From positions 1,240,001-1,304,000 of the forward strand of contig NZ_JAUSXM010000001.1 of the NCBI RefSeq assembly GCF_030815985.1: DNA of 64,000 nucleotides, read 5' to 3'. Below, one piece after another: positions 35,966-64,000 of this stretch. Numbering within the stretch: the first letter of the stretch is position 1; each line of letters opens with the position of its first letter. The notes under the pieces are model-generated. The model made no database searches, was not told where the DNA came from, and was given only the letters and a program-made list of their open reading frames with translations. The position numbers were made by a program, and so were the translations under genes. Origin of the DNA: Paenibacillus sp. W2I17 (lineage in GTDB: Bacteria > Bacillota > Bacilli > Paenibacillales > Paenibacillaceae).

Positions 35966-36021
35966 GTAGCAAATGCCCCCTTAAAGTATGGTTTGTGTCT
36001 TTAAGCCTTCTCAATATATCA

Positions 36022-36035
36022 AGATAGCGCTTTCA
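36022..36035 (-). promoter_or_regulatory. cre (CcpA) site of importer 2
   Basis: On the minus strand TGAAAGCGCTATCT matches all 14 positions of TGWAARCGYTWNCW. It is 57-70 nt before the first binding-protein start. Confidence 0.8.
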
Positions 36036-36086
36036 AAGTTACCCATGAAAGTGTACCTCCTACTTTGAAAAGTATATCCCTCATAT

Positions 36087-37826: not shown

Positions 37827-39394
37827 TGTGCACCTCGCTGCTCATTTCCCATAAGAAAATTGCGATATTCTGTAGGCGATAACTTAACAAGTTTCTCAAA
37901 CTGTGTTACAAAATAATCCGCATTCTGAAATCCTACACGTGCAGCAACCTCGTACATTCTCAGATCCGTCTGGCGCAATAACTTCTTCGCCTCATGAATA
38001 CGCAGGTTCAGCAGATAGTCATTGAAATATTGATTGTAGCTTTTGCGGAATAATCGCCCAAGATAAACGGGATTCATATAGAAGAGCGCAGCAATGCTTT
38101 TGAGATTGATGTTCTCAGTATAATTTGCATCAATATATCGTTTGATCTTGCTGATATCTCCTTTGGATCGCTCCATTCGTAAATGAGAGACATAATCCTC
38201 GGCTTCCTCCAACGCGATGAGAAATGCATTCTTCAATAGTCGTAAATTCCAACCTTCATGATTTTGTTGTGCCAGCTCCTTTAGCTGCTGCAACCCTTCA
38301 TCATTACCACCCATTTCGTGGACTACAGCAAGAATACCCGTTATATAACGCAAAAGAGAACCCGATACAGCCTGAGGAGAAAATCGATTCATATGAAACA
38401 ATTTGAATTTCTCTTCTACAATCTCGTGATAAGCTGACCTATTCCCCTCTTCCAGGCTCAAAATTAATTGATCCACCTCGTCTTGATATACATTGAAAAC
38501 AAACAGCGGTTTGTCCTTGATCTCCGTATAACGTACGATACCTCCAGTTTCAGCATACTTATGCTTGGCTGCTTCTTCAGCCGCCATAAGGGATTGTGGG
38601 ACATCACCAATTTCTTTGACGAGTGTTCCTGCGTAAAGACCGATATCCAAGTTAAACCTTTTGCTCAGTGTTATATGAATATTATGCAGTTTATCCTGTA
38701 ACGCCGAGCCCCCTTGATGATGATCAGGCCACAACAGTAATAAAGCAAACATGCCGCGTTGTTGCTCACTGATGAACATTTTGCATAAATTACTCTCCAG
38801 AGAATGTACTGCTTCACGTAGCTCTTCAATGGTAATTTTAATTTCATCTAATCCGGTCTGAAGTTCAATCAAAGTCATGAGCAGACTTGAACTACGATTG
38901 ATCCCAAGCATCTCGGCATATCGATGTTCATCTTCCTTCTGTACATGGCCTTTGATCACATCCTCCAGCATGATGTTACTCGCCTGCCCCTCAGCCAAAA
39001 GAATATGTTTTCTTTTATTGCAAATCAGATTAGCCGACTTCTGCAACGTCACCGTCAGTTCTTCATCATCAATAGGCTTCAGGATATAGTCATGAACACC
39101 GTACCTGATTGCCTGCTGTGCATATTTGAAGTCATGATAACCACTGATGATAATGAACACAGGTTCCAGATGTGGCATTTTCTCTACGGCACGTATCAGT
39201 TCCAGTCCATCCAGGATTGGCATGCGGATATCTGTTATAATCACGTCTGGTTGCAGGCTTTCAATCAGATTTAATGCCTCTGCACCGTTCTCTGCCTCTC
39301 CGATAATCTCCATATTAAGATACATCCAATTTATGAGTTCATACAGCCCCTTTCGTACATACATCTCGTCATCTACCAGTAATACTTTTAACAT
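37808..39394 (-). CDS. YesN-type response regulator with AraC domain (importer 2)
   Basis: 528 aa. Receiver with Asp8/Asp9 and phospho-acceptor Asp55 (IITDIRMP), Lys in YILKPI; long linker; AraC/XylS domain at the end (YTENINLKSIAALFYMNPVY, YEVAARVGFQNADYFVTQFE). I start at ATG 39394 (MLKVLLVDDE), 9 nt after AAAGGGG; the frame is open 15 codons further. It probably activates the tandem binding proteins and permeases downstream. Confidence 0.92.
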   Translation of the reverse strand: MLKVLLVDDEMYVRKGLYELINWMYLNMEIIGEAENGAEALNLIESLQPDVIITDIRMPILDGLELIRAVEKMPHLEPVFIIISGYHDFKYAQQAIRYGVHDYILKPIDDEELTVTLQKSANLICNKRKHILLAEGQASNIMLEDVIKGHVQKEDEHRYAEMLGINRSSSLLMTLIELQTGLDEIKITIEELREAVHSLESNLCKMFISEQQRGMFALLLLWPDHHQGGSALQDKLHNIHITLSKRFNLDIGLYAGTLVKEIGDVPQSLMAAEEAAKHKYAETGGIVRYTEIKDKPLFVFNVYQDEVDQLILSLEEGNRSAYHEIVEEKFKLFHMNRFSPQAVSGSLLRYITGILAVVHEMGGNDEGLQQLKELAQQNHEGWNLRLLKNAFLIALEEAEDYVSHLRMERSKGDISKIKRYIDANYTENINLKSIAALFYMNPVYLGRLFRKSYNQYFNDYLLNLRIHEAKKLLRQTDLRMYEVAARVGFQNADYFVTQFEKLVKLSPTEYRNFLMGNEQRGAQCQDGT

Positions 39395-39425
39395 CCGTGT
39401 GTCCCCTTTCCTCCAACGAAAATAA

Positions 39426-39456
39426 ACCGCCGGTAGCATGTCTCCCTATCGGCGGT
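39426..39456 (-). terminator. Terminator between the remnant and the regulator gene
   Basis: ACCGCCG pairs with CGGCGGT, extended by TAG/CTA, and exits on the minus strand into TTTATTTTCG. It follows the remnant's stop codon by 2 nt. Confidence 0.72.
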
Positions 39457-49440: not shown

Positions 49441-50343
49441 TTACTCTTTTACCCCTCCAAGCTGCAAGCCATGAACGAAATACTTCTGCAAAAATGGGTA
49501 TACAACTAAGATGGGTAATGCGGCAACAATCGTAATCGCTGCCCGAATAGATACAGGTGTGACCATGTTACGCGCAGCACCAAGATCTGCACCATTGGCA
49601 ACGGCTGCACTGCTGTTGGAATTCATAGAAGATGATAATAGTTTCATCAACTCATATTGCAGCGTGCTCAGGTTTTGTTTGGAAGATGCATACAGAAACG
49701 TATCAAACCAAGAATTCCATTGACCGACTGCAATGAACAGTGCAACAGTAGCGAGAACCGGTTGGCACAGCGGTAGAATAATGGAAATGAATGTTCTGAA
49801 ATCTCCAGCACCATCAATTTTGGCGGATTCGATCAATCCCTCCGGTAGTGTCTGAATATAGGTTCGAATAACAATCATATTAAAGGCACTGATCAGCCCA
49901 GGAATAATGTACACCAGGAAGTTGTTTAACAAATGTAAATCTTTCATTAGGAAGTAAGTTGGAATAAGACCTGCACTAAAATACATCGTAAGAACAACTG
50001 TAATGGTAATGGGCTTTCGTAATATATAATCTTTTCGGCTTAGTGTGTAAGCCAGCATGGAGGTTAAGAATAGACTTAGAACTGTCCCCAAAACCGTTCT
50101 CGCCACAGATATACCAAAGGCGCTGAAGATGGTCCCTCCTGCAAATACTGCTCTGTAGTTTTGATCTGTCCATACCCGAGGCCACAGATAAATCCCACCT
50201 CGGATGGTGTCATTACCGGCATTGAATGATACGGCGAGTGTATTCACAAACGGATACAGGGTAACAATCGCGATTGCGATCATCAGTATACCATTTAACG
50301 TATGGAAGACAATCGGTTCAAGCCGAGATTTATTGATTCCCAT
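49441..50343 (-). CDS. ABC sugar permease, YtcP family (importer 3)
   Basis: 300 aa, six helices, EAA motif ESAKIDGAGDFRTF, C-terminal LQLGGVKE. Very similar to the importer 2 permease, including the Ser/Asn-rich loop (SSSMNSNSSAAVANGADL). AAGGGGG precedes ATG. It follows the LplB gene by 12 nt. Confidence 0.9.
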   Translation of the reverse strand: MGINKSRLEPIVFHTLNGILMIAIAIVTLYPFVNTLAVSFNAGNDTIRGGIYLWPRVWTDQNYRAVFAGGTIFSAFGISVARTVLGTVLSLFLTSMLAYTLSRKDYILRKPITITVVLTMYFSAGLIPTYFLMKDLHLLNNFLVYIIPGLISAFNMIVIRTYIQTLPEGLIESAKIDGAGDFRTFISIILPLCQPVLATVALFIAVGQWNSWFDTFLYASSKQNLSTLQYELMKLLSSSMNSNSSAAVANGADLGAARNMVTPVSIRAAITIVAALPILVVYPFLQKYFVHGLQLGGVKE

Positions 50344-50355
50344 CTCTAGTCCCCC

Positions 50356-51321
50356 TTATATTAATCGGTCTTCCCCGAGCCGTTTGGAAATTGAATTCGC
50401 CGCAAAGATCAGCGTGATACTAACTACTGTTTTGAAGATACCTGCCGCAGTAGCCAAAGAATAATTCCCGATCTGTAGTCCGTATTTCAGGACAAATATA
50501 TCTATCGTCTGTGACCAGTCGACAACCACACCATTACCTAACAGATACTGAACCTCGAATCCAGCTTCCAAAATCCAGCCCATATTCATGATCAGCAAAA
50601 TGATAACAATGGATTTGATTCCGGGTAAGGTCACATACAGCATTTTCTTATATCGGTTCGCACCATCAATCTCTGCCGCTTCATAGAGGGAAGGATCGAT
50701 AGACGTGATGGCCGCCAAATAAATAATGGCATTCCAGCCAACTTCTTTCCATACATGGGATGCGCCTACAATGCCCCAGAAGTATTCCGGAACGCTAAGC
50801 CACATGATAGGTTCTTGAATGATATGCAGCTTCATGAGTACCACATTCACAATCCCACCATCTACAGATAGTGAACTTGCTACGATACCTGTCACAATAA
50901 TCCATGAGAGAAAGTGAGGTAAATACGATATTGTTTGAATGGTTCGTTTATATAACTTATGTTTGATCTCATTAAGTAAAATGGCAAATATAATCGCTGT
51001 CGCAAATCCGAGCACCATATTGATGACGCTCATCGCAATGGTATTACGAAGCACGTTAAGAAATGCATCGTCTGTTAGCAAAAACTTAAAGTGTTTGAGC
51101 CCGACCCATTCCTGCTGCGTGAAACTCTTCGCAGGACTGTAATTCTGAAAGGCCATAACCCAGCCCCAAATGGGATAATACGAGAATACAAGAATGTACG
51201 CAACGATGGGCAATGACATGAACATGAGTTGTCTTTGTCCGCGCAATCGTTTTAACAGTGGTGCTTTGGGAACGACTGTACGGGTGGTTTGCTCTGGTAT
51301 GGCTCCAGGCGTGTTCGCCAT
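50356..51321 (-). CDS. ABC sugar permease, LplB family (importer 3)
   Basis: 321 aa, six helices, EAA motif YEAAEIDGANRYKKM. GGAGGAG precedes ATG. It sits 111 nt downstream of the binding-protein gene. The ATPase must come from elsewhere in the genome. Confidence 0.9.
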   Translation of the reverse strand: MANTPGAIPEQTTRTVVPKAPLLKRLRGQRQLMFMSLPIVAYILVFSYYPIWGWVMAFQNYSPAKSFTQQEWVGLKHFKFLLTDDAFLNVLRNTIAMSVINMVLGFATAIIFAILLNEIKHKLYKRTIQTISYLPHFLSWIIVTGIVASSLSVDGGIVNVVLMKLHIIQEPIMWLSVPEYFWGIVGASHVWKEVGWNAIIYLAAITSIDPSLYEAAEIDGANRYKKMLYVTLPGIKSIVIILLIMNMGWILEAGFEVQYLLGNGVVVDWSQTIDIFVLKYGLQIGNYSLATAAGIFKTVVSITLIFAANSISKRLGEDRLI

Positions 51322-51432: not shown

Positions 51433-53088
51433 TTATTTAACAGACCAGTTCTCAATTCTCCATTTAAGTTGTTCATTAATCCGGTCTTCATAGGATTTGA
51501 CATTGATTTTCTTGTAAGCGTCTACATATTCAGTCCAAATGTTATCGAACTCATCCGGTTTTGACATGATTGCTTTAGGCAAGAATTTCAATGAAGTGTC
51601 TGTCATTTGTTTGTTCGCTACTGCAGCATCAGAGCCTTCTTTCAGATCGACCTGCCATGCTGGATAGTACACTGGATTTTCTGGTGCAGGAGAGAAGAAG
51701 TCACTCCACGTTTTGAAGCCATATGCATCCAGAAGTTCTTTATCTTCCGGTTTGAGGTTGTCATAGAATTCCTCAGGTTGGTTGATCGCTCCAATTGCAT
51801 TGCCATCTTCAAATGTTCCTTCGAGCTTTGGTGCCGCAGCATAAAAACCTTCTGCTTTGTTAACCAATCTCCATGCCGGATCATCCTGCTCTGTCCGTTG
51901 CTCCGGTGTACGATAGAATCTTCCCTCTTCATTCACCTGATAGTCTACACCCTCTTCACCCCATGACAAGAGCTTCTGGTACTTCTCGTCCATAAGCTTA
52001 TCGAGGAATTTGATAAGTGCAACAGGGTCTTCAGCATCTTTACTGATACCAAAACCATTGTTCAAGTTAATGACCGGACGATCCAGATAATGATCTGTGA
52101 TACTTGTATCATAGACAAGCGGGAAGCCTACGTATGTCTGGCCAATTTTCCCCTGTGCTACGAGTGGGTCTTCTCCGGCTTGGAAATTCCAGTGCTGGTC
52201 GAACATACTAAGCACACGTCCCGAAGAAATTTTGGCCAGATATTGATCGTAGTTCTGAACAAAGGCTTCTTTATCCAGCAATCCCTCGTTATACAGATTG
52301 TTTAGTTCTTTATAATACCGTTTGGAGATATCTTTGTCGGCAAAAACGGTTGCGACTCCACTATCATCTACGACTACGCCCCCGTCATTGGGGTGACCCG
52401 TAAGATGTTCAGGTGGGTTAAGCAAAGGGAACGTCCGCCAGTCTGAAGCCAATGTAGTGAAACCAATCGTCGGTTGACCATCAATCGTTGGATTCTTGGC
52501 TGCATAATCACGGATCAACTTTGTGAAATCATCCAACGTTTTAGGAGTCGGGTACCCGGCATCCTTCAGTATGGACTTTTGAATCCAGAATGCAGGACCA
52601 GAATAATAGTTACTAATGAACTCCCCTGTATACACTCCATAGTTAGGCAACCAGTAAATATGTCCATCACTGGAGTCTTTCATCCGGTTCCAGTCTTTAC
52701 CGAAATGTTTCTTCAGATTAGGTGCATGCTCTTCAATGAGATCTTCGAGCGGAATAACCGCACCCGCTGAGACCAACTTGGTGTCTGCTGTGATCAGATC
52801 CGGGAAATCGCCCCCGGCAATCATAACGCCCAACTTCTGTTGAAGATCACCTACTAGAAACTCCATCTCAAGATTAACGCCGAGTTCATCCTGGATCTTC
52901 TTGTAGATTCGGTTATCTTTAGCTGGCGCCTGATTTGGCGTTCCGATAAAGGCCGTGATGTTCAGTACCTCTTTCCCATCCTTTGTAGTCGCTTTCTCAT
53001 TGTCACCGCTGCATCCTGCCAGTGCCAAACTCAAAGCCAGAACGAGTGATACGGAACCCCAAAGCTTCTTTTTCTTAAGTCCCCCCAT
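51433..53088 (-). CDS. Extracellular solute-binding lipoprotein, importer 3
   Basis: 551 aa. Signal peptide GGLKKKKLWGSVSLVLALS with lipobox LALAGC (Cys26), then the LplA-type fold. Start ATG 53088, 7 nt after GGAGGG; the frame is open 26 codons upstream without a ribosome site. It follows the second response regulator after a 139-nt gap holding a cre-like site, so it may have its own promoter. The nearby xylan genes suggest a xylo-oligosaccharide ligand; this is inference. Confidence 0.9.
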   Translation of the reverse strand: MGGLKKKKLWGSVSLVLALSLALAGCSGDNEKATTKDGKEVLNITAFIGTPNQAPAKDNRIYKKIQDELGVNLEMEFLVGDLQQKLGVMIAGGDFPDLITADTKLVSAGAVIPLEDLIEEHAPNLKKHFGKDWNRMKDSSDGHIYWLPNYGVYTGEFISNYYSGPAFWIQKSILKDAGYPTPKTLDDFTKLIRDYAAKNPTIDGQPTIGFTTLASDWRTFPLLNPPEHLTGHPNDGGVVVDDSGVATVFADKDISKRYYKELNNLYNEGLLDKEAFVQNYDQYLAKISSGRVLSMFDQHWNFQAGEDPLVAQGKIGQTYVGFPLVYDTSITDHYLDRPVINLNNGFGISKDAEDPVALIKFLDKLMDEKYQKLLSWGEEGVDYQVNEEGRFYRTPEQRTEQDDPAWRLVNKAEGFYAAAPKLEGTFEDGNAIGAINQPEEFYDNLKPEDKELLDAYGFKTWSDFFSPAPENPVYYPAWQVDLKEGSDAAVANKQMTDTSLKFLPKAIMSKPDEFDNIWTEYVDAYKKINVKSYEDRINEQLKWRIENWSVK

Positions 53089-53140
53089 GTACTTGCCCTC
53101 CTTGGAAGTGGTATGTCTTACTGTTTTTAGTATGAAGAAA

Positions 53141-53154
53141 TGTATGCGGTTACA
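53141..53154 (+). promoter_or_regulatory. Candidate cre site of importer 3
   Basis: TGTATGCGGTTACA fits 12 of 14 cre positions (also 12 of 14 on the other strand) and lies 53 nt before the binding-protein start. Confidence 0.45.
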
Positions 53155-53227
53155 GAATATATACATTTAAGGTCTACCCCCCTGTAATTGTAGGTCTTAT
53201 TCAGGAGGGGTTCTTCTTTTTCATGGA

Positions 53228-54769
53228 TCAATTCGCATACTTTTGCCTGTATTCTACTGGTTTCATGGCTGTTCGTTTTTCGAAGTGTCTGAGAAAATGC
53301 TGGTAACTGCGGTACCCAACCTGTTCTGCAATCGCACTTGATGTTTGATTCGTCTGCTGGAGCAGACGCTTCGCTTCTTCCATTCTTAGATCATGTACTA
53401 CCTCAATTACACCCTTACCATACTTTCGCAAAAAGGATTGCCCTAAATGGACAGGATTCACGTAGAATCGTTCTGCGAGCTCCTGGATCGTAAATGTCTC
53501 CCTGTAATGCATCTGCACATATTCAGCAACCGTCGCCTGGATGCCACCCATTTGCCTCTCCCGGAAAACAGCCAGTTCTGACTTGCATTGCAAACAGAAA
53601 TGTTCCAGATTGTTAGCAACCTCTTCTATATTTCGATGGCCCTTCTCCAGAATTCCGCTCGCCAATTCATTCATTAGAGCATTAGGTTCTCCTCCTAATT
53701 CTCTACACAGGGACAATCCGCGGAATATAATATGAGTAGAGAAAATATGTACAATCTCTGGCGCAGCCTTCATCTGTACAAACAGTTCAAAAGCACTCCG
53801 AATCGCAGACGAGAGTTCCTCTACAGAACCGTTTTCAAGCAAATCGCAAATATGGTCCACCTCTGACAGCGTTTCCGGATCAAACTGCCAATTCTCCAGC
53901 TGAATATCTTCGGCAAACAAAAGACGCTCTTGGTTAAAAAACAAATACCGCCCAACTTCCTGAGCGGAGCGGAAGGATTCAGATAAATGCTCCAGTTTGT
54001 TAACCGTTAATCCAACCGCGATATGAATTTCTTCGCAGCCGTTATGTTGCATATTGTTTATCAAACGCTGGGTAAAAGCTTTAATTGCTTCAAATGTCTC
54101 ATTTCTATCATTCGTTTCCTCCCCCCATACAAGTCCCAATGAGTCTCTTGTTCTGTCTATTACATAACAGCAAATTGTTTCTTCAGCCGTTTGTTCGACT
54201 ACTGAACAGACTTCCTGAATATCTCCCTGAAAGGCTATCCGCAGGTATGCCCAATGGGACTTGTTTAAACGAGGAAGGATCTCTGACATCTCCTCCTCCG
54301 ATATATTTTGCTTATCCTTAATCAGTGCAGACAAAAACGCTTTGATCCTTTGCTCGTTTGCATGTTCCCTTATACGCTCCTGGTTTTCACGCTCCTGCAA
54401 TTGCATACGGAGACGGACCAACATATCCTCTGCTTCTGTACTATCAACCGGTTTGGTTAAATAGTTGGAGACACCTAATCGAATAGCTTGTCTGGCATAA
54501 TTAAAGTCACTGTATCCACTCGTGATGACAAACAGCACAGACTCATGTTCCAATCGTCGTGCTTCTTCTACAAGTTCCAGCCCATTCATCACAGGCATAC
54601 GAATATCTGTCACCACGAGATCAGGTCGATCTTGTTCCATCATCCGAATGGCTTCCTCACCGTTGGCGCACACGCCTCTGATTTCGAAACCATACTTTTC
54701 CCAATTGATCAGAAGCTGTAACCCTTCAATGGCATAAGGTTCATCATCGACTAACAATACTTTATACAT
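53228..54769 (-). CDS. YesN-type response regulator with AraC domain, second of two (importer 3)
   Basis: 513 aa. Receiver with Asp8/Asp9, Asp55 (VVTDIRMP) and Lys in YLTKPV; long helical linker; AraC domain with YRETFTIQELAERFYVNPVH and IAEQVGYRSYQHFLRHFEKR. GGAGG precedes ATG. It is 13 nt downstream of the kinase gene and directly upstream of the importer 3 binding protein, the likeliest target. It differs from the other regulator of this operon in length and linker. Confidence 0.92.
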   Translation of the reverse strand: MYKVLLVDDEPYAIEGLQLLINWEKYGFEIRGVCANGEEAIRMMEQDRPDLVVTDIRMPVMNGLELVEEARRLEHESVLFVITSGYSDFNYARQAIRLGVSNYLTKPVDSTEAEDMLVRLRMQLQERENQERIREHANEQRIKAFLSALIKDKQNISEEEMSEILPRLNKSHWAYLRIAFQGDIQEVCSVVEQTAEETICCYVIDRTRDSLGLVWGEETNDRNETFEAIKAFTQRLINNMQHNGCEEIHIAVGLTVNKLEHLSESFRSAQEVGRYLFFNQERLLFAEDIQLENWQFDPETLSEVDHICDLLENGSVEELSSAIRSAFELFVQMKAAPEIVHIFSTHIIFRGLSLCRELGGEPNALMNELASGILEKGHRNIEEVANNLEHFCLQCKSELAVFRERQMGGIQATVAEYVQMHYRETFTIQELAERFYVNPVHLGQSFLRKYGKGVIEVVHDLRMEEAKRLLQQTNQTSSAIAEQVGYRSYQHFLRHFEKRTAMKPVEYRQKYAN

Positions 54770-54782
54770 GAGAGTTTACCTC

Positions 54783-56564
54783 CTATTTCCTCTGTTCCAG
54801 CTTGGAGATCGGTATACGGTACCCTGCAATGGTTTCCTTTCCAGGTACACTGCTTAGATCAAATATCGCATTTCCTTCATAAAAGAGTTCCAACCTGCGG
54901 TAGACATTGCGGAGTCCTACATGCTCGCCGTTCCTGGGTCTTTCAGAACGAATATCTCGCAGGAGCTCGGTTAGTCTCCCTGCATCCATACCGATTCCAT
55001 TATCGATCACCTGAATAACCAGTTCAGAAGCGTTTCGTCTCGCCGTTATCTTGATCTCTCTTCCATTTTTTCGCGCCTGCAAGCCGTGTTTGCAGGCATT
55101 TTCGACGAGCGGTTGAATACTCATTCGGGGAATGAGCAACGAAGCTGTATCAGGATCAACCTCGAAGGTGTAATCAAACAGCTCACCAAAGCGAAACTTC
55201 TCAATCTGGAGATAAAGATTCGTAAATTGCAGCTCTTCTTGCAAAGGAATCAGATTGTCAGAATGACTGAGCAACTGTCTCATCAGCTTGGAAAGACTTT
55301 TAATAATCTCAATTACTTCCGTATATCCATTCTTTGTACTAACGACCAGCAAAGCATTCAATGTGTTAAATAAAAAATGGGGATTCATCTGACTCTGGAG
55401 CATGGACAATTCAGTCCTCACTTGATCCAGCTCCAAATCTTTTTGACGGATTTCCAGTTTATATACGTCATTAATCAGCGTATGAATTTTACCAATCATG
55501 ATGTTAAATGTACGAATAAGCCCGCCAATTTCGTCGCGGCCTTCGTGAATTTCAATCAGATCGAATCGTTCGTTACGAACCTTCTCCATATGTCTGGATA
55601 ACTTGCGAATCCGATAGTGGTAGGAACGCAAAATAATGTAGATCAATACAGAGGGGACCACGATACTTAATGCGAGCAACCCCAGAATTGATTTAAAGGC
55701 TTCTTGCAAAAGGTGGTCAAGGTGACGCGTATCGGCAACTCCAATCAATTTCCAACCCTTTAGGTAGGCTAGATTCCCCAACGATTTTTCGAGTGTGTAA
55801 GCAGAATCTCCAGATTCCTTGAGCATTGATTCATTATCAAGGGGGGATAAGTCGGTTTCGCTGAATTCCCCACTTGAAACGACGGTTCGATTGTTGCTGT
55901 CCACCAGACGCAGCTGAAGACTGTCTGATTCACGATTTAAAATGCTATACACCCGGCTAAGTTCCAGATCAATCTTGGAATACTTGTTGTAATTGGCATA
56001 GGAAGTATAGGTATCCATTTTGCCAATCACACTGATTCTTCTTCCCGCGTTAAATCCGGATGGCTCAATATAATCAACGACAAGAATGCCTCCACTGGTG
56101 GATTTCAGCTGTTTCAATCCAGGGAGTACATTCTTGTCTTTCATCACGATATAATGACTGCCCGTCTGAATGGTATCGTTATCCGTATAGATACGCACCT
56201 CCAGAATATTCGCTGACATGTACCGTGTTAATTTATCTCGCAGGAATGCATGGTAGACGTTGTAATAATCCACGGGGGAGTGATAGGTCCGATCCAGTGC
56301 CTCATAGAGCGAATCGTCTGCTGCAATAATTCGGCTCAGGGCAACGCTCTCATCAATCATGCCTAGCAGTTCCCCCGCAGCCCTGTCGATGGATTTACGC
56401 AGATTTTCCTGTTCTCTAATCTTGATATCCGCAGAGGTTCGTTCATAAAAGAAGATATTAATCGTTATTACAGGAAGGAGAATACTAAGTACATAAATAA
56501 GCAGAAATTTGGATCGGAGAGGAATATCATTAACCTTACTGAACATCCAGAATTTATGACGCAT
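54783..56564 (-). CDS. YesM-type sensor histidine kinase (importer 3)
   Basis: 593 aa. Helices near 20-42 and 300-325 flank an extracellular sensor; HAMP; His box MNPHFLFNTLNAL; N-box PLVENACKHG; G-box DNGIGMD. I start at ATG 56564 (MRHKFW), 6 nt after AGGGTGA and 4 nt after the upstream regulator's stop; the frame is open 29 codons more. It is flanked on both sides by YesN-type regulators, so it may phosphorylate both. Confidence 0.92.
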   Translation of the reverse strand: MRHKFWMFSKVNDIPLRSKFLLIYVLSILLPVITINIFFYERTSADIKIREQENLRKSIDRAAGELLGMIDESVALSRIIAADDSLYEALDRTYHSPVDYYNVYHAFLRDKLTRYMSANILEVRIYTDNDTIQTGSHYIVMKDKNVLPGLKQLKSTSGGILVVDYIEPSGFNAGRRISVIGKMDTYTSYANYNKYSKIDLELSRVYSILNRESDSLQLRLVDSNNRTVVSSGEFSETDLSPLDNESMLKESGDSAYTLEKSLGNLAYLKGWKLIGVADTRHLDHLLQEAFKSILGLLALSIVVPSVLIYIILRSYHYRIRKLSRHMEKVRNERFDLIEIHEGRDEIGGLIRTFNIMIGKIHTLINDVYKLEIRQKDLELDQVRTELSMLQSQMNPHFLFNTLNALLVVSTKNGYTEVIEIIKSLSKLMRQLLSHSDNLIPLQEELQFTNLYLQIEKFRFGELFDYTFEVDPDTASLLIPRMSIQPLVENACKHGLQARKNGREIKITARRNASELVIQVIDNGIGMDAGRLTELLRDIRSERPRNGEHVGLRNVYRRLELFYEGNAIFDLSSVPGKETIAGYRIPISKLEQRK

Positions 56565-56568
56565 ATAA

Positions 56569-57684
56569 TCACCCTTGGTTTTTGTTTTTATAGACTGACG
56601 GAAGCTCCCCTGTATGCGCTCTGAACTTTTGGGTGAAATATTCAGCATCATGATATCCTAGCCTGAATGCAATGTCAGTGATCTTCATATTGGTACGTCG
56701 CAGGAGTTTACGGGCCTCCTCAACACGAAGCTGGTGCACATAGTCACTGAAACTGACCCCCATCTCCCGCTTGAACTGTTGACCCAGGTAGGCAGAATTC
56801 ACGTGAATACGATTAGCTACATCTTGTAATTTAATTTTACTTCGATAGTGTTGCTTCAATTCATTCACTGCTTCTGCAACCAGCCCTCCCGTACCCGTCT
56901 TTTGCTTCAATTCAGACTGGGAAAGTTGCTTGGACAGTCGAACACACAGGTCTTGCAATGTGCCGGAAGACCAACTCGCAGCTTCATGCCATTCTTTTTC
57001 ACATAGTATTTCTCTGCAACCCTCTCTTTTTCCATATTTTCGTAGCAACTCCCCATGGATATACCGGATGACATGATGTATCCATTCCAACGAAACCTCT
57101 GCTTTCTCACTTTTCTCTAACAGTGCACTCACTGCAATATCGATGGAATACGTGTTTTCTGCTTCAATCAACGCCAAGATCTCTTTGGAGATGTTCATCA
57201 TTTGCTCTAAATCATATTCTTCGCTTATTCGATATTCATTAAGATGACTCTCATAGGTTTCATCTGTAACCATGACTCCATTTTGCTGTTTTTGCTCATT
57301 TCTGCGTTTGTCCAGAGGTTCAATCATTTCCATAAGGATTTGATGGATCTCCTCGGGAACAAGAGGTTTAAGCACGTACTGATCGACCTGATAACGTATG
57401 GCTTGCTTCGCGTAATTAAAATCGGAGTATCCTGTAACGATAACAATTTTAGAGGTATAGGCGAGATCTTCTCGCAAGGTGTGAATCAAACCAAGACCAT
57501 CCATAACAGGCATTTGAATATCAGTGACGACAAGATCCGGTTCAACCGAGTTGAATAGAGCAAGTGCTTCCTCCCCATCCGTTGCCGTTCCGCAGAGTTC
57601 ATATCCACAAGCTCGCCAGTCAATCATCGTTCTCCATCCTTCTAGCATAAACGGCTCATCATCCGCGACAATGACCTTGTACAT
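56569..57684 (-). CDS. YesN-type response regulator with AraC domain, first of two (importer 3)
   Basis: 371 aa, shorter than usual because the linker is short. Receiver with Asp8/Asp9, Asp55 (VVTDIQMP), Lys in YVLKPL; AraC domain YRSKIKLQDVANRIHVNSAY and ITDIAFRLGYHDAEYFTQKF. GAGGTGA precedes ATG. It is the first gene after a promoter that carries two phased 17-bp direct repeats, the kind of site an AraC dimer occupies; the same element precedes the xylan-esterase operon, so this regulator is my candidate xylan activator. Confidence 0.92.
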   Translation of the reverse strand: MYKVIVADDEPFMLEGWRTMIDWRACGYELCGTATDGEEALALFNSVEPDLVVTDIQMPVMDGLGLIHTLREDLAYTSKIVIVTGYSDFNYAKQAIRYQVDQYVLKPLVPEEIHQILMEMIEPLDKRRNEQKQQNGVMVTDETYESHLNEYRISEEYDLEQMMNISKEILALIEAENTYSIDIAVSALLEKSEKAEVSLEWIHHVIRYIHGELLRKYGKREGCREILCEKEWHEAASWSSGTLQDLCVRLSKQLSQSELKQKTGTGGLVAEAVNELKQHYRSKIKLQDVANRIHVNSAYLGQQFKREMGVSFSDYVHQLRVEEARKLLRRTNMKITDIAFRLGYHDAEYFTQKFRAHTGELPSVYKNKNQG

Positions 57685-57750
57685 TAGCTCACCTCACTTT
57701 TATCCTTGATCAGCTGCATGTAATTTATCTATATCAATAGGTAGATTCCA

Positions 57751-57782
57751 GTTGTTCTGAAAACGCTAAACAGCAGAACAAC
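57751..57782 (-). other. Hairpin in the leader of the regulator operon
   Basis: GTTGTTCTG pairs perfectly with CAGAACAAC around a 14-nt loop, 67 nt before the regulator start. No T-tract follows, so it is not a simple terminator; it may stabilise or regulate the roughly 237-nt leader. Confidence 0.4.
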
Positions 57783-57927
57783 AGCAGGATTGTTGTCTGC
57801 TCGCACAACTTGGAGAACAAAATTTCTACCAATCTCATCGTCATTAATCATTAACATAGAAAATGGTTCCATCGGACCGTACTATAAGAACGCTCCGATT
57901 GTAGCGAAGCGCCGGGATAACAATTCA

Positions 57928-57956
57928 AGTGTAACGCTTACATTTTGGTACAACAA
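57928..57956 (-). promoter_or_regulatory. Promoter of the importer 3 sensor operon with overlapping cre
   Basis: On the minus strand -35 TTGTTG (57951-57956), 17-bp spacer, -10 TACACT (57928-57933). A cre-like TGTAAGCGTTACAC (12 of 14 consensus positions, plus coordinates 57929-57942) covers the -10 and part of the spacer. The same boxes and spacing recur at 61917-61945. Confidence 0.6.
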
Positions 57957-57994
57957 CCTGTTAAACTATAGGTTTTCACCCGACAAAGTATAGG
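57956..57994 (-). repeat. Two phased direct repeats, probable regulator-binding site
   Basis: Plus-strand copies ACCTGTTAAACTATAGG (57956-57972) and ACCCGACAAAGTATAGG (57978-57994) agree at 13 of 17 positions and start 22 bp apart, two helical turns. The inner copy abuts the -35. This is how AraC-type activators bind. A third copy is at 61945-61961. Confidence 0.6.
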
Positions 57995-58033
57995 TTTAGC
58001 TCAGAAGTAATCTATTGCCAGGAAAAAGAGTTT

Positions 58034-58873
58034 TCATTCTCCACGCACAATACGGAATCCTTGATCGGGACCAAAACCATTTGCATCAAATTTGCCTCGA
58101 AATGATATTTCATTGTTATTGACACCGCCGATCCAGCCTCCGCCTTTCACAACTCGCCAAGTTTGATTTGGACTCTCCGAATCGCTGTACCAGTCCCAGC
58201 ACCATTCTCTCACATTCCCAGACATATCATAGATTCCTAACTCATTCGCCTTCTGAGTTCCAACTTTTTTGGTTTGATTACGATTGCTCTCAATAGCGGG
58301 CCAGCTCCAGTCACCCGTCAGAATGTTCTCGCCGGCATTTACCCAGTACCAAGCAACTTCATCAGGATTGTTACTTCCGCTGTATGTGTAATTTAAGCTC
58401 TTTTGACCTCCGCTTGCAGCGTATTCCCATTCTGCCTCTGTGGGTAAACGGTAACCGTTGGCGTCCTCGTTGATCGTTACATTCCATTTTATAGTGTCGT
58501 TTTCATTGTGATTATTCGTGTCCTGGTTGTCTTTATCTATATTGTAATAAGGTTTCAGGTTTTCTTTTATACTTTTTTGATTACAGTATTCCACTGCGTC
58601 ATACCAGCTGACCATTTCAACAGGCAGGTCATCTCCCTTGAAGCCAGAAGGGTTTTCCCCCATAACCTCCATCCATTCTTTTTGAGTTACTTCGTATTTG
58701 CCAATATAGAAGGAATCCAGCGTTTCATTCCTATCAATCTGACTCGGCTTACTGCTCTTGAAGGCTCCTCCTTCGACGAATACCAAGTCATCGCTTAATT
58801 TCGTATTACTTGCTGAACAAGCACTTAGACTAACAACTATAGCGATTAAAGTTAACCATACCAGCTTCTTCAT
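58034..58873 (-). CDS. SUMF1/FGE-fold lipoprotein, probably non-catalytic
   Basis: 279 aa. Lipobox SLSAC (Cys19), then the formylglycine-generating-enzyme fold: FVEGGAFKSSK, IGKYEVTQKEWMEVMGENPS, PVEMVSWYDAVEYCN, GYRLPTEAEWEYAASGG, YDMSGNVREWCWDW, RVVKGGGW and GFRIVRGE. The C-terminal region lacks the Cys pair that true FGE uses. No sulfatase gene is near. It is a surface protein next to the xylanase gene and may bind carbohydrate or protein. A 40-residue Asn/Asp-rich insert (NIDKDNQDTNNHNENDT) is unusual. Confidence 0.85.
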   Translation of the reverse strand: MKKLVWLTLIAIVVSLSACSASNTKLSDDLVFVEGGAFKSSKPSQIDRNETLDSFYIGKYEVTQKEWMEVMGENPSGFKGDDLPVEMVSWYDAVEYCNQKSIKENLKPYYNIDKDNQDTNNHNENDTIKWNVTINEDANGYRLPTEAEWEYAASGGQKSLNYTYSGSNNPDEVAWYWVNAGENILTGDWSWPAIESNRNQTKKVGTQKANELGIYDMSGNVREWCWDWYSDSESPNQTWRVVKGGGWIGGVNNNEISFRGKFDANGFGPDQGFRIVRGE

Positions 58874-59006
58874 TCAATTATTCTCCTTTACTAGCTTAAA
58901 TCCGGCAACGTCGAGGTCCGTTAGTCTGGAGAATAACGTTACTCAACGCTACCGGAAAATTGAATTTCAAATGCAGGTGCAGAAGTTGAACTGCATCACA
59001 TCATTT

Positions 59007-59642
59007 TTACCAAACCGTCACGTTTGCGCTTCCGCTGCTTTGATAACCTTCGGTTGCCATCACCTGATAGGACCAGCTGTTGCCTAAGTACATCCCTTTG
59101 CTCGCCCATGCATTCACATGATTACTGAACGTGATGGTAGAATTGACTCCGATCGGTCTCTTGGACTGTCTAACACTCCAATATTGAGGGAAAGTCTGAG
59201 TACCATCAATGGAAGGTGCATTGTATCTCATCGTTGTATAGATGTCATATGTGCCACCATCACTAGTCATTGAGCCCTTGTACGTGCCAGTCGGACGATA
59301 TGTTCCCCAGCTATCCACCACGTAGTATTCAATGAGTGCGCCTCTTGTCCAGCCATAGAAGGTCAGATATCCGTTACCTGATGGAGAAAATACACCAGCA
59401 TTATAATTGACCACTCGATTAGGCGTACCGTATGTCCACCCTTTCCCGACAACAAAGTTCCCGGTATTTTGCCAATTCACGCTGTAATTCCCGCCCGATC
59501 CATTCACGGCGTTGACCGTTCCTCCGCCATCTGTCCAATTTTGCCAATAATCTGTTGCTGCGCTCGATGTGGCTGCGAAGACACCAAAACTCATGGCAGA
59601 TGCGAGAACAACGGTTAACAATTTTTTGCTAAATTTGAACAT
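59007..59642 (-). CDS. xynA: Secreted GH11 endo-1,4-beta-xylanase
   Basis: 211 aa. Signal peptide residues 1-28, mature GH11 jelly-roll of about 183 aa without a carbohydrate-binding module. Catalytic Glu105 in [11 protein letters not shown] (nucleophile) and Glu198 in [10 protein letters not shown] (acid/base); thumb loop [20 protein letters not shown] intact. It cuts the xylan backbone outside the cell. It follows the CE1-like esterase by 71 nt in the same direction, probably as part of one transcript from 61.9 kb. Confidence 0.96.
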
Positions 59643-59713
59643 GGATTATACCTCCTGATATTTTAATAGATTTGGTTGATGCTACAATCCGATATGAATG
59701 TTCTTCAGCAAAT

Positions 59714-60514
<801 letters not shown>

Positions 60515-60528
60515 CTATCAGTCTTCAG

Positions 60529-61812
60529 TTAATCCACATAGCCAAAACCCAGAATAGTGAAGCATTTATGTTCATGACCTTCCGCCATTTCGATCTCGAT
60601 GGAGTGTTCCCCCACATGCTCTTCGTTAAGCAGAAGTGTGGCATGGCAATGGGTCCAGTTCACTTGACGCGGATCGACTTTTTGGACAAATACCCCATCT
60701 ACCTTGATATCTGCAGTTCCGAATTCGTCGTTACCCGAATCCTTGAAGATCAGAATGAGGCGTTTGCACTGCAAACTTATCCGAAAGCTGCTCTGATCCT
60801 CTTTCCCCTCTGCTGTACGCATCCAGTTGTTGGGAAACTGAGGTGTACCATAGTCATGAGCATCCATCTCAGCCATCTGCAGATCCGTGTCCGTTTTGCA
60901 AAAAGAGCCTGCATCGATTCGAGCAATGTTATTGCCGTTTTTCCGATCCAACAGCTTCACATTAACAAATTCATTTCCAATTAGCGGAGCTTTTTCAATA
61001 TCATGATCTTGCTCATCCCATTCAGAACGATTCGTCACATCGAACAAATATTCCAAACAATCGGCCATAACCCGATGCCCCGTGTTAGTCGGATGATATA
61101 TATCATGGAAAAATTGCTTTTTGGAAATAATGTTGCCCTCATCTTTTGTTTTGCCGAACTGATCTACGACAGCATCTTTCACACTTACCATTGGCAGATC
61201 ATAGTGCCAGCCTACCGGAGCGAGACGATCCTGCAGATTCCAGTCATTTTCGAATACACTGAATAACAAGATGACTGCTGGCTTGTTATCGGCAGCAAGT
61301 GCTTTGAGCACCAGACTCTCGTAACATTTACCTTGGGTTTCATCATCTGCGTCATTGACTGCGAATTCGATTATGACAATATCCGGCTGAACGGCACCTC
61401 CCCTCAGAACATCACGATCATAACGTACAATCCCCAGTTCTGAAGGAGTTCCACCCACACCTGCTTTAATCAGATGAATCGGACTATCTTTTGAAAGCGC
61501 AAACATAAACTTGAACGACTCATACGACCGATAAGCGTAACTTTGGAGATGAATAGGTACTGCACCAGCACCATGGGTAATGGAGCCTCCAATATAAGCG
61601 ATAACGACAGGTTCGCCGTTTTTTGCCTTCTCAATGGCTCGTTTTAATCTGACATTATTTCCTTTGTTCAGAAGAGATCGGCCAATCATGTCGCGATATC
61701 CATGTGATTCAAAATCAATTGCGGGCTTGACTGCCGACGCTGTCACTCCAACTGGATCGCGCGGTGCAGTGAATTCCGTGTTTTCACCTGCATCTCCTGA
61801 ATCCTGGAGCAT
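60529..61812 (-). CDS. SGNH/GDSL hydrolase, probable xylo-oligosaccharide acetylesterase
   Basis: 427 aa, cytoplasmic. Block I GGSIT with Ser77, Gly in KAGVGG, Asn153 in AVND, and Asp237/His240 in DIYHPTNTGH complete the SGNH set. The C-terminal 130 residues form a beta-rich accessory domain. Such enzymes deacetylate sugars. An in-frame stop just upstream fixes ATG 61812 as the earliest start; its ribosome site is weak. First gene of the esterase-esterase-xylanase operon, 98-100 nt from the predicted transcription start. Confidence 0.85.
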   Translation of the reverse strand: MLQDSGDAGENTEFTAPRDPVGVTASAVKPAIDFESHGYRDMIGRSLLNKGNNVRLKRAIEKAKNGEPVVIAYIGGSITHGAGAVPIHLQSYAYRSYESFKFMFALSKDSPIHLIKAGVGGTPSELGIVRYDRDVLRGGAVQPDIVIIEFAVNDADDETQGKCYESLVLKALAADNKPAVILLFSVFENDWNLQDRLAPVGWHYDLPMVSVKDAVVDQFGKTKDEGNIISKKQFFHDIYHPTNTGHRVMADCLEYLFDVTNRSEWDEQDHDIEKAPLIGNEFVNVKLLDRKNGNNIARIDAGSFCKTDTDLQMAEMDAHDYGTPQFPNNWMRTAEGKEDQSSFRISLQCKRLILIFKDSGNDEFGTADIKVDGVFVQKVDPRQVNWTHCHATLLLNEEHVGEHSIEIEMAEGHEHKCFTILGFGYVD

Positions 61813-61866
61813 AAATCATCATCACATCCTTCCGGTTAGATTCTGACCATCCTCAAACAACATTTA

Positions 61867-61909
61867 AAGGATCACAGCTTGTATTATTATTAGATCAGAT
61901 GTGATCCTT
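61867..61909 (-). other. Stem-loop at the predicted 5-prime end of the xylan operon mRNA
   Basis: AAGGATCACA (61867-61876) pairs perfectly over 10 bp with TGTGATCCTT (61900-61909). The promoter at 61917-61945 predicts transcription starting near 61910, so the hairpin would be the extreme 5-prime end, a position that often protects mRNA from decay. It could instead be an operator dyad. Confidence 0.5.
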
Positions 61910-61916
61910 CTCCCAA

Positions 61917-61961
61917 AGTGTAGCGCTTACATAATTTTACAACAACCTGACAAAGTATAGG
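61917..61961 (-). promoter_or_regulatory. Promoter of the xylan operon with cre and regulator element
   Basis: On the minus strand: element CCTATACTTTGTCAGGT (61945-61961), -35 TTGTTG (61940-61945), 17-bp spacer, -10 TACACT (61917-61922). A cre-like TGTAAGCGCTACAC (61918-61931, 12 of 14) overlaps the -10. Architecture is identical to 57928-57994 apart from having one clear element copy. Confidence 0.62.
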
Positions 61962-62015
61962 ATTTTAACCAATATATCATTTTAAGTTGAGTACAATCAC
62001 ATGCAGATCAGAACA

Positions 62016-62069
62016 CCTATAATTTTTCATGTAAACGCTTTAATTTGTATACTATTTCCATGTTATAAT
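62016..62069 (+). promoter_or_regulatory. Promoter region of GH8 with element copy and cre
   Basis: Plus-strand CCTATAATTTTTCATGT (62016-62032) matches the minus-strand xylan element at 14 of 17 positions, in the orientation of GH8 transcription. A cre site TGTAAACGCTTTAA (62030-62043, 13 of 14) follows at once, then -10 TATAAT (62064-62069). No good -35 is seen, as in activator-dependent promoters. Confidence 0.55.
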
Positions 62070-62102
62070 TTTGAAAAACCGCATTGATGAAGGAGGATAC
62101 TC

Positions 62103-63245
62103 ATGAATATCACGGGTCAAGGCGCGTGGGATACGGGTACATATACAAATCTTTTCTTGAAGCTAGGCTACGATGAGAATGAGATCACCAACAGATTGGA
62201 AGAAACATGGAACGAGCTGTTTTATGGCGATGAAAATACTCGAATATATTACCCCATGGGTGAGGATAAAGGTTATTTGCTGGACACTGGTAATCTCGAT
62301 GTTCGCTCCGAGGGCATGTCCTATGGCATGATGATGGCTGTTCAGATGGACAAAAAGGAAGAATTTGATCGACTCTGGAATTTCTCACACACGTTTATGC
62401 AACATAAAGCGGGACGTTATAAAGATTATTTTGCCTGGCATTGCAAGCCTGACGGAACCCGACTCTCACAAGGTCCTGCTCCTGATGGTGAGGAGTTTTT
62501 TGCCATGGCACTTTTTTTTGCCTCCAACCGCTGGGGCGATGGCGCTGAACCTTATGATTACAAGGCACAAGCCCGCAAGATCCTTCATGCATGTATACAT
62601 CAGGGCGAAGACGGCGAAGGCGATCCCATGTGGGATCCGGAAACAAAACTGATCAAATTCATACCAGAAACACCGTTTAGCGACCCATCCTACCATCTGC
62701 CTCATTTTTATGAACTATTCGCGAAATATGCGGATGAAGAAGATCAGAGCTTCTGGAAAGAAGCGGCGACCGCTAGTCGGGCCTACCTTCATACAGCCTG
62801 CCATCCCGTAACCGGGCTATCACCTGAATATGCGAACTATGATGGCTCTCCGGCTCCAATACAGCCGCATGGTGATTTCAGACATTTCTACAGTGATGCC
62901 TACCGTGTTGCTGCGAATATAGCGCTGGACTGGGAATGGTTCCGCAAGGATCACTGGCAGATCGAACAATCCAATCGCATTCAATCCTTCTTCAGTGATA
63001 TTGAAATGTCCGATTATCGTCGTTATACAATAGAAGGGGAACCTTTCGACGAACCTTCACTGCATCCTGTAGGTTTGCTGGCTACCAATGCCATGGCTTC
63101 ACTGGCTGCGGACGGTCCACATGCTGACACATTCGTTCGCAAGTTCTGGAACACACCTCTGCGTCAGGGAGAGCGACGTTATTACGACAATTGCCTGTAT
63201 TTTTTCAGCATGCTGGCTCTAAGCGGAAGATATCGCATGTACTAA
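62103..63245 (+). CDS. GH8 reducing-end xylose-releasing exo-oligoxylanase
   Basis: 380 aa, cytoplasmic. Closely fits the Bacillus halodurans Rex enzyme: Glu70 in SEGMSYG (acid), Asp128 in PAPDGEEFF and Asp265 in FYSDAYR at the expected places. It removes xylose from the reducing end of short xylo-oligosaccharides after uptake. AAGGAGG lies 7 nt before ATG. Monocistronic, divergent from the esterase/xylanase operon. Confidence 0.92.
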   Translation: MNITGQGAWDTGTYTNLFLKLGYDENEITNRLEETWNELFYGDENTRIYYPMGEDKGYLLDTGNLDVRSEGMSYGMMMAVQMDKKEEFDRLWNFSHTFMQHKAGRYKDYFAWHCKPDGTRLSQGPAPDGEEFFAMALFFASNRWGDGAEPYDYKAQARKILHACIHQGEDGEGDPMWDPETKLIKFIPETPFSDPSYHLPHFYELFAKYADEEDQSFWKEAATASRAYLHTACHPVTGLSPEYANYDGSPAPIQPHGDFRHFYSDAYRVAANIALDWEWFRKDHWQIEQSNRIQSFFSDIEMSDYRRYTIEGEPFDEPSLHPVGLLATNAMASLAADGPHADTFVRKFWNTPLRQGERRYYDNCLYFFSMLALSGRYRMY

Positions 63246-63265
63246 GGGAATGTGTACGAGCCGTT

Positions 63266-63304
63266 GAACCTGTCCTGTGAACGTTTGGCTTGCAGGACAG
63301 GTTC
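63266..63304 (+). terminator. Hairpin after GH8
   Basis: GAACCTGTCCTG pairs perfectly with CAGGACAGGTTC (12 bp), 20 nt after the stop. The following T-tract is weak. Confidence 0.65.
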
Positions 63305-63362
63305 AATCTCAGAATTTTAAGAAGGATGCACTGATATTACGATTTAATCTATATCAATAAAA

Positions 63363-63402
63363 AACGTTCCCGGCTCGCAAGTGCTGACTGCGAACCGGAA
63401 AC
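63363..63402 (-). terminator. Probable terminator of the fourth binding protein
   Basis: CGTTCCCGGCTCGCA pairs with TGCGAACCGGAAACG (a few mismatches); minus-strand exit is TTTTTTATTG. Otherwise 63305-63523 shows nothing. Confidence 0.6.
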
Positions 63403-63523
63403 GCGTTTGGGTGTGCAAATACAGGCAGTAACTTTCCCCACTCTGTACTCCAATGCTTCTTTATGACCTGGATGCCTCTTCATCATCTGAATTGTTACAC
63501 GGGATATGATTCAGATACTTTAA

Positions 63524-64000
63524 TTATTTGGAAACAGAAGAAGTATCATAGGAAGATTGCATAATCTCCAGATATCGATTAATGTTCAGTCCCTCCAGGC
63601 CTTTCACATATTCATCCCAATCCTTATCCAGACTTTTGGCGCCTGTAATAAATTGCAGGGCGTTCTGATCGATGTAATCCTTGAGATTGGTCTGCATCAT
63701 GCTGGCTTCATCAGCTTGGGACGGATCTACCCACAATGCCCAATGAGGGAAAATCTCTTTCGGTTCCTTGCCCTCCATTAACAATGTCGCCTCATAGAGA
63801 CGTCGCTCACCACCATCATTGGCATAGATGTCTGTCCCCTGTACTTCGGAGTCCCGATATGCCTGATAATGATTGTACTGACTCAATGCAGCCCAACTGT
63901 CATTACGAGGTTCTTCTCCAGAAGGAAGCGGAATGGCTTTATATAACGGTTCAATCTGATCATTGAGCGCCACTTCTCCTTCTTGTGGTTTGCGCCAGCT
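63524..64000 (-). CDS. Extracellular solute-binding protein, C-terminal part (runs off the window)
   Basis: The last 159 residues of a larger protein; the frame stays open to the window edge (SWRKPQEGEVALNDQIEP). Ends typical of long LplA/LipO-type sugar-binding lipoproteins: HWALWVDPSQADEASMMQTN and DKDWDEYVKGLEGLNINRYL. A GTG at 63973 is internal, not a start. Beside the xylan genes it may belong to another xylo-oligosaccharide importer. Confidence 0.82.
   Translation of the reverse strand, partial: SWRKPQEGEVALNDQIEPLYKAIPLPSGEEPRNDSWAALSQYNHYQAYRDSEVQGTDIYANDGGERRLYEATLLMEGKEPKEIFPHWALWVDPSQADEASMMQTNLKDYIDQNALQFITGAKSLDKDWDEYVKGLEGLNINRYLEIMQSSYDTSSVSK

Follow-up and report, generated by a model that had tools for sequence, protein, structure and literature searches.

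XynDC/XynEFG of Geobacillus stearothermophilus resembles the locus described here in placing a kinase and an AraC-type regulator beside a sugar-binding protein and two permeases. A footprint study in Geobacillus reportedly found GAAA-like direct repeats, which are not the element of the present locus. A homologous xynDCEFG operon is described for Paenibacillus sp. LS1 in the accessible part of the report (PMC10269863). In Clostridium (Ruminiclostridium) cellulolyticum, the XydS/XydR system shares with our locus an AraC-type response regulator, of 532 aa, that controls hemicellulase genes, but it has one regulator and, in the accessible text, its tabulated common sequences do not include CTATAnTTT (PMC3572039). 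XuaS/XuaR of the same species is likewise a two-component system with an importer and hydrolases/esterases for arabinoxylo-oligosaccharides, yet with a single regulator and, in the text at hand, with no operator given (PMC9675976). In Paenibacillus sp. JDR-2, an aldouronate cluster with an importer and GH67, GH10 and GH43 genes is co-regulated with a distal secreted GH10 gene; the available portion of that paper mentions no regulator binding site, two-component system, AraC or YesN (PMC4765114). A layout related to that of JDR-2, with GH67, is found in Bacillus sp. PS06, where the element discussed below stands before the transporter gene. A literature search largely confined to papers outside subscription retrieved no description of this element or of an operator for Paenibacillus xylan AraC-type regulators.

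The locus lies in a stretch of 64,000 nucleotides of Paenibacillus sp. W2I17, referred to as the window. It shows the traits of the YesM/YesN type: the kinase domains, receiver-plus-AraC-HTH regulators, and an adjoining binding protein with two permeases. The pairing of one kinase with one regulator, as in XynDC, is not found, and the system is filed as a variant of XynDC-like control because two regulators flank one kinase. Unlike XynDC, the system has a second regulator (RR1, or RR508 in some relatives) ahead of the kinase, and its element also stands before unlinked genes of secreted xylanases. The element system is therefore a variant of XynDC/YesMN-type control with two regulators per kinase and a fixed-geometry operator. 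The genes behind the two promoters are the following.

60529-61812, minus strand: SGNH/GDSL esterase gene (PF13472), the first behind the element, present in 55 of 75 congeneric genomes at E 1e-60
59714-60487, minus strand: feruloyl-esterase-like (CE1-type) esterase gene (PF00756; far below the cut-off of the NCBIfam xylanase/feruloyl esterase model)
59007-59642, minus strand: GH11 xylanase gene (PF00457)
58034-58873, minus strand: gene of an FGE-sulfatase-domain (SUMF1-like) lipoprotein (PF03781), the last of the presumed operon
56569-57684, minus strand: RR1, first response regulator (371 aa; receiver PF00072 and AraC-type HTH PF12833; tree)
54783-56651, minus strand: sensor histidine kinase (HAMP PF00672, His_kinase PF06580, HATPase_c PF02518)
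53228-54769, minus strand: RR2, second response regulator (513 aa; receiver PF00072 and AraC-type HTH PF12833; tree)
53129-53194, minus strand: predicted RR2-type operator and promoter before the importer, with CCTACAATTACAGGGG at 53194-53179, CCTTAAATGTATATAT at 53172-53157 and CATACT at 53134-53129
51433-53088, minus strand: importer substrate-binding protein (likeness to solved solute-binding proteins, best E 1.6e-75)
50356-51321, minus strand: importer permease (PF00528)
49441-50343, minus strand: importer permease (PF00528)

An ORF that agrees in size and start with the lipoprotein gene also follows the GH11 gene in the genomes G012, G064, G086 and G035. The true start of the kinase is probably later than the listed one, at which the ORF overlaps RR1. 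The substrate-binding protein matched no Pfam family at E 0.001. Its start is likely the ATG at 53088, after a GGAGGG box; the listed start at 53166 appears too early because it falls inside the conserved operator. That operator ends 22 bp from CATACT and is unlike the xylan element. The window contains a second system, made up of RR543 (37808-39439), a kinase (36087-37826), two substrate-binding proteins, permeases and an SLH-GH3 gene. Its kinase-transporter gap (36013-36078, minus strand) carries a variant tandem, GATATACTTTTCAAAGTAGGAGGTACACTTTCATGGG, with half-sites 21 bp apart and 23 bp before TATATT.

The two promoters that head these operons have the following parts.

61946-61961, minus strand: proximal copy of the element, CCTATACTTTGTCAGG, in the esterase/xylanase operon promoter (sequence; orthologous loci)
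61940-61945, minus strand: -35-like hexamer TTGTTG, which abuts the element and is a weak match to TTGACA
61919-61931, minus strand: palindrome TGTAAGCGCTACA over spacer and -10, earlier taken for a cre, with 3 mismatches to the cre consensus
61917-61922, minus strand: -10 hexamer TACACT of the esterase operon, 23 bp past the element, a distance common to five promoters of this genome
57979-57994, minus strand: distal copy of the element, CCTATACTTTGTCGGG, 22 bp upstream of the proximal one, regulator operon (sequence)
57957-57972, minus strand: proximal copy, CCTATAGTTTAACAGG, in the regulator operon promoter (sequence; orthologous loci)
57928-57933, minus strand: -10 hexamer TACACT of the regulator operon, 23 bp past the proximal element (sequence)

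In an ungapped comparison, site B (61917-61961) and site A (57928-57972), both on the minus strand, agree in 37 of 45 positions; no other stretch of the 64-kb window comes closer to site B than 25/45 on the plus strand and 24/45 on the other. The sequence-only reading had proposed a nearly identical promoter module at two places 4 kb apart, and this is borne out. The 12-mer that it saw in both promoters is real as well: TACAACAACCTG starts at 57949 and 61938 (plus strand) and has no other copy on either strand of the window. Taken alone it means little, because 286 different 12-mers recur on the plus strand of the window. A 24-bp composite gives two matches at up to 3 mismatches in the window and none in 100 shuffles; with the next best window match at 25/45, chance resemblance of the two promoters is out.

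On the minus strand, both sites have the same order of element, TTGTTG, 17-bp spacer and TACACT, with TGTAAGCGYTACA overlying spacer and -10. The operator of an AraC-type activator consists of two direct half-sites about two helical turns apart, the proximal one abutting the -35. Two direct copies 22 bp apart are present at the regulator operon, as they are at loci L216 and L228 of other genomes, and only the proximal half-site is clear at the esterase operon; the distal copy at site A had gone unmentioned in the earlier reading. The weak -35 of the esterase promoter, compared with TTGACA, is what would be expected of an activator-dependent promoter. A tandem-repeat finder run on 56000-64000 did not report the element, a sigma-70 consensus scan stayed at shuffle level without listing the two promoters, and Rfam gave nothing at the gathering threshold on 57600-62200. 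For the regulator operon a leader of about 235 nt is predicted (57690-57924, minus strand); it is partly alike in close relatives and has a modest folding z of -1.75.

The genome is a single contig of 7,008,369 bases (7.0 Mb). Exact copies of the 16-bp element CCTATASTTTRWCRGG number four in it: three belong to the two window promoters, and the fourth precedes a GH10 gene (GH10a) that encodes a xylanase with CBM domains. At up to 2 mismatches there are 24 matches, against 81 for a backwards control. The match count was therefore dropped as evidence; since the control is higher, the number alone means nothing, and the argument rests on location and geometry. The DNA around all 24 matches was inspected, and outside the window ORFs were mapped at the two GH10 sites. 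A second GH10 gene (GH10b) is preceded by a site with 2 mismatches, and a model built from 22 promoters adds a copy before a GH30-like xylanase gene (Pfam GH30 barrel at E 1.8e-4, 21.1 bits with a cut-off of 23, plus CBM6). The element thus stands before five sets of genes: the regulator/importer operon, the esterase-GH11 operon, the two GH10 genes and the GH30-like xylanase gene.

A second model, of 15 rows, drew for its training solely on the two window promoters and orthologues of these. It ranks the genome in the order esterase promoter, regulator promoter, L294, GH30, GH10a and GH10b, with E-values of 0.04 for GH30, 0.08 for GH10a and 0.17 for GH10b, each weak singly; L294, in third place, is a match where a short ORF unrelated to xylan begins. 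The distance between the last base of the proximal element and the -10 is exactly 23 bp in each of the five promoters, where the -10 hexamers are TACACT, TACACT, TATAAT, TAAAAT and TAGAAT, and TANNNT has a frequency of 0.0345 per position in these intergenic regions. The -35 hexamers implied by a 17-bp spacer are poor (TTGTTG, TTGTTG, TAAACA, TGTTAA and TTTTCA), which would fit activator dependence. Of the module geometry first proposed, the distance from element to -10 is invariant, whereas TTGTTG as a -35 is absent from the GH10 and GH30 promoters.

Two lower-ranked matches of the two-promoter model, L299 and L298, look real in form. L299 (G000:C1:1324718-1324774) stands before another sugar-binding-protein gene 20 kb past the window, 24 bp from TACACT. 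This gene is divergent from a receiver-like ORF of about 260 aa and has the core promoter CAGGTTGTT...TACACT; a similar core occurs in L311, L312 and L313, from three genomes of other genera, where the upstream half-sites differ. L298 (G000:C1:6533621-6533650) is GCTATAATCTGTCAGG, 23 bp from TAAAAT, intergenic and oriented away from a GH43 gene, with no evident target: in its direction the first longer ORF (145 aa) is more than 500 bp off, and only a 62-aa ORF lies between. The LacI/MHYT neighbourhood that holds GH10a here (L183, upstream of 9414) has in genome G090 a regulator, a kinase and a transporter gene instead (L193, 5049-5103). The two promoters are much alike, and the gene that follows the promoter seems to have been exchanged.

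Conservation of the element in orthologous promoters, the check suggested together with the first reading, was run and passed for the esterase operon. Of the 55 esterase loci the best 30 were read; 29 of these carry it with at most 1 mismatch to NCTATANTTTRNCRGG, the exception being L077, and protein identity falls to about 70% among the loci that keep it. L075 and L083 have a clear copy only at the distal position. In G012 and G064 the element directly precedes an esterase-GH11-lipoprotein series, though the first esterase gene is elsewhere. RR1 is found at E 1e-45 in 32 of 75 genomes, in 17 at 89% identity or more and in 13 at 60-65%. All ten loci read from the group with at least 89% RR1 identity, our own included, have the regulator-operon element, one of them (L034) with 3 mismatches in the proximal copy; the element was seen before RR1 of 61-65% identity in none of the five loci read.

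A 0-mismatch element precedes GH10a in 15 of 30 loci (L115-L129). Of the remaining GH10a loci (L130-L144), 14 of 15 match only from query residue 39-42, in longer or different frames, and their promoters were not properly covered; L131, which matches from residue 5, has no element. Compared with NCTATANTTTRNCRGG, 17 of 30 GH10b loci have 0 mismatches, 12 have only 2-3-mismatch sites and one has none. For GH30, model matches in a similar range occur in at least 13 genomes among the matches listed, the gene having been checked in our own genome. Proximity within one cluster, with only 4 kb between the sites, could speak for two promoters alike by chance or through recent duplication of a promoter segment. 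That 29 of the 30 esterase loci read retain the element, some with proteins only about 70% identical, and that it also stands at distant xylanase genes, contradicts this explanation and leaves it a negligible probability. A regulatory role of the element in a xylan regulon is highly probable.

In 198 sampled genomes of the order, the strong form of the element (E <=1e-5) is confined to the genus of the window. Five weak matches (8.4e-5 to 7.5e-4) lie in other genera; one is inside a long ORF, another has no sugar gene within the DNA inspected, and three precede a sugar-binding-protein gene, identified by Pfam in two cases, with a CAGGTTGTyG...TGTAAGCGYTACACT core. The recurrence of this core before another sugar-binding-protein gene in three genomes outside the genus favours the view that the shared sequence is mainly a core promoter with a site for CcpA or another repressor (TGTAAGCGYTACACT), and not a response-regulator operator. 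The GH10a, GH10b and GH30 promoters, however, keep the element and not the core, and the 22-bp direct repeat is made by the element, not by the core. The palindrome at the -10 is also a poor cre with a poorly conserved centre. With the cre consensus taken as TGWAANCGNTNWCA, the RR1 and esterase promoters each have 3 mismatches, and 761 of 2000 shuffled controls have 3 or fewer; the central CG of the palindrome is kept in 18 of the 29 orthologous esterase loci tabulated. The cre over the -10, claimed in the first reading, is thus not borne out at the two window promoters, a CcpA cre at these sites being unsupported with a match at chance level, and the repressor-site view as a whole is very improbable.

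A different cre-like sequence, TGTAAACGCTTTAA, belongs to the divergent GH8 gene (62103-63245). This gene has its own conserved block, CCTATAATTTTTCATGTAAACGCTTTAATTT, at 62016-62043 on the plus strand, and its cre-like TGTAAACGCTTTAATTT is identical in all 21 loci inspected of 30, distant ones included.

The distribution of the element largely follows that of the two-regulator system. RR1 and a close RR2 (at least 54% identity) occur in the same 32 of 75 genomes; in a further 23 the counterpart of RR2 is RR3, diverged to about 33% identity. Two regulators also flank the kinase in G020, G001, G035, G009, G012 and G086, the last being cut by the stretch. In G035, G009, G012 and G086 the order is RR508, kinase, RR3, binding protein, permeases, GH43 and GH10, with RR508 of G086 cut by the end of the stretch and with the GH43 and GH10 genes identified by Pfam in G035 and G009 and by eye in G012 and G086. 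In G020 and G001, the two relatives with a diverged RR1 operon whose locus was mapped, the regulator directly follows a GH10 gene of the same orientation; this GH10 gene has no evident signal peptide (by eye), and a terminator-like hairpin (by eye) stands between it and the regulator. A xylo-oligosaccharide ligand would fit these GH10 and GH43 genes beside orthologous or counterpart operons. In a tree of 46 receiver-plus-HTH rows, from which RR548_G018 and the duplicate RR541_G090 were left out, a second-regulator clade (99/96) and a first-regulator clade (90/90) each contain parallel lineages, and for this reason the two-regulator system looks old. L206, a single first regulator of Clostridium, falls outside the first-regulator clade.

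When a strong element is defined as a best model match at E <=1e-5 before any gene and the system is called present at a cut-off of 1e-70, the strong element is found in 47 of the 55 congeneric genomes with the two-regulator system and in 0 of the 20 without it, a comparison over 75 genomes that depends on the cut-offs and ignores phylogeny. With the same dependence and the same disregard of phylogeny, genomes that have the esterase gene carry it in 43 of 48 cases with the system and in 0 of 7 without. Eight genomes with the system have no strong element; G005 and G071, without the system at this cut-off, have weak matches of 9.5e-5 and 3.4e-5. The element stays before the esterase operon in genomes with no close RR1 orthologue but with a diverged counterpart, and those with only the RR508/RR3 version attest no more than the presence of a member of the system family. 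The sequence-only reading had tied the two-regulator/importer operon to xylan. The shared element before the GH10 and GH30 genes upholds the link to xylan; the wiring to the regulator at 56569 stays inferential, because the element persists without a close RR1 orthologue.

In view of this distribution, the element probably belongs to the two-regulator system. Ownership by RR543, the single regulator beside importer 2, or by its RR541 relatives draws on several likenesses: the DNA-binding domain of RR543 is 58-69% identical to those of five of nine single regulators linked to the element, its kinase-transporter gap holds a variant tandem operator at the same 23-bp distance, and the GH10a promoter closely resembles that of the RR541 system of G090 in the same LacI/MHYT neighbourhood. 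Against these stands the distribution of the RR541/543 family at E 1e-180, since the strong element is present in 33 of 53 genomes with the family and 14 of 22 without it (Fisher p = 1). This lack of association, with 14 strong-element genomes devoid of the family at that threshold, speaks against RR543 as sole owner and makes any ownership by this family quite unlikely, though cross-talk may occur.

Within the two-regulator system, the question is which regulator binds. RR2 or its counterpart RR3 occurs in all 47 strong-element genomes. The DNA-binding domains of RR2 and RR3 are 40-47% identical across lineages, compared with 34-42% for RR1 and RR508. In Geobacillus, moreover, XynC, the regulator beside the transporter, is said to activate the transporter promoter. 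By this analogy RR2 (53228-54769) would be the XynC-like regulator that binds the element, and RR1 would serve some other role. The gap between RR2 or RR3 and the transporter gene, however, contains a different conserved operator, which in the window is 22 and not 23 bp from the -10. By eye, 18 such gaps of RR2/RR3 systems show this other tandem, partial in L211, L214, L206 and L203, in the forms CCTnnAATTA..GGGG..CTTAAATCT for the RR2 lineage and CCTnAACTTT..GGGG..CTTTAATTC for the RR3 lineage.

The recognition helix of RR2 and RR3 is also unlike that of element-linked regulators. In what we take, from AraC-type proteins, to be the second recognition helix, the motif [DE]YF is present in all nine hand-picked element-linked single regulators, whose transporter promoters carry a CTATAnTTT tandem, in 3/3 RR1 and 3/3 RR508 sequences, and in none of six RR2/RR3 sequences. 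In a test on 80 loci without picking, it occurs in 11 of the 13 parsed loci at matrix score >=13 against 18 of 59 parsed others; one of 14 matches and 7 of 66 non-matches were unparsed, and the two parsed exceptions, L260 and L274, have the match 2-3 kb upstream of the regulator. The helix favours RR1 without proof, as [DE]YF is not specific to element-linked regulators. Whole-domain identity is not decisive as a guide to the binder; the DNA-binding domain of RR1 is 31-36% identical to those of the element-linked single regulators. On balance, RR1 rather than RR2 would bind the element, and binding by RR2 is rather unlikely.

Related operators can be recognised beyond the genus. At least 80 named related-regulator loci among the matches listed, 1.28 Mb in all, were scanned, and the model gave 7 matches at E <1. 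In L210 (Bacillus sp. PS06) and L216 (Paenibacillus sp. HB172176) the match is between kinase and transporter gene, 23 bp from the -10, and in the Lachnospiraceae loci L227, L228 (two matches) and L271 it is between regulator and transporter gene. In L229 it precedes an arabinofuranosidase gene (Pfam), in a cluster with a kinase, a regulator, a transporter and a GH8-like ORF (by eye). When the surroundings of the 80 regulators were scanned with a matrix, the best score reached at least 13 in 14 cases on the plus strand, compared with 9 for the minus strand and 3.7 for shuffles; hairpins that contain the repeat account for part of the excess on the minus strand. In the Lachnospiraceae loci L228 (about 9608-9680) and L271 (about 9590-9665) the distal half-site is, by eye, an arm of a terminator-like hairpin, and terminator and operator overlap there because of it.

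Taken together, the element is probably the operator of an AraC-type regulator in a one-kinase/two-regulator system that would sense xylo-oligosaccharides. In the proposed mechanism, extracellular xylo-oligosaccharides would activate the kinase, and phosphorylated RR1 (56569-57684) would bind the element and recruit RNA polymerase. In this way RR1~P would induce its own operon, in positive feedback, together with the secreted xylanases and esterases, while RR2 would use a separate operator of its own, the one before the substrate-binding protein gene. Such a mechanism would resemble those of XynDC, XydSR and XuaSR. More tentatively, two branches may depart from one kinase, with RR1 acting via CTATAnTTTGTCAGG on its own operon and the scattered xylanase genes, and RR2 acting via CCTnnAATTA..GGGG on the importer. 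The two-regulator arrangement may be of ancient origin, its RR1/RR508 and RR2/RR3 lineages running in parallel, and the wider regulator family may have had as its ancestral operator the CTATAnTTT tandem at a fixed distance from the -10, which extends to Lachnospiraceae.

The enzymes of xylan degradation in Paenibacillus are well studied. A 16-bp operator with fixed geometry makes the xylan regulon predictable in dozens of genomes, and the element offers a direct test of one kinase using two regulators. It also suggests a general way of reading operators in this family, as a direct repeat of 21-22 bp before a sugar-binding-protein gene that ends 22-23 bp from the -10.
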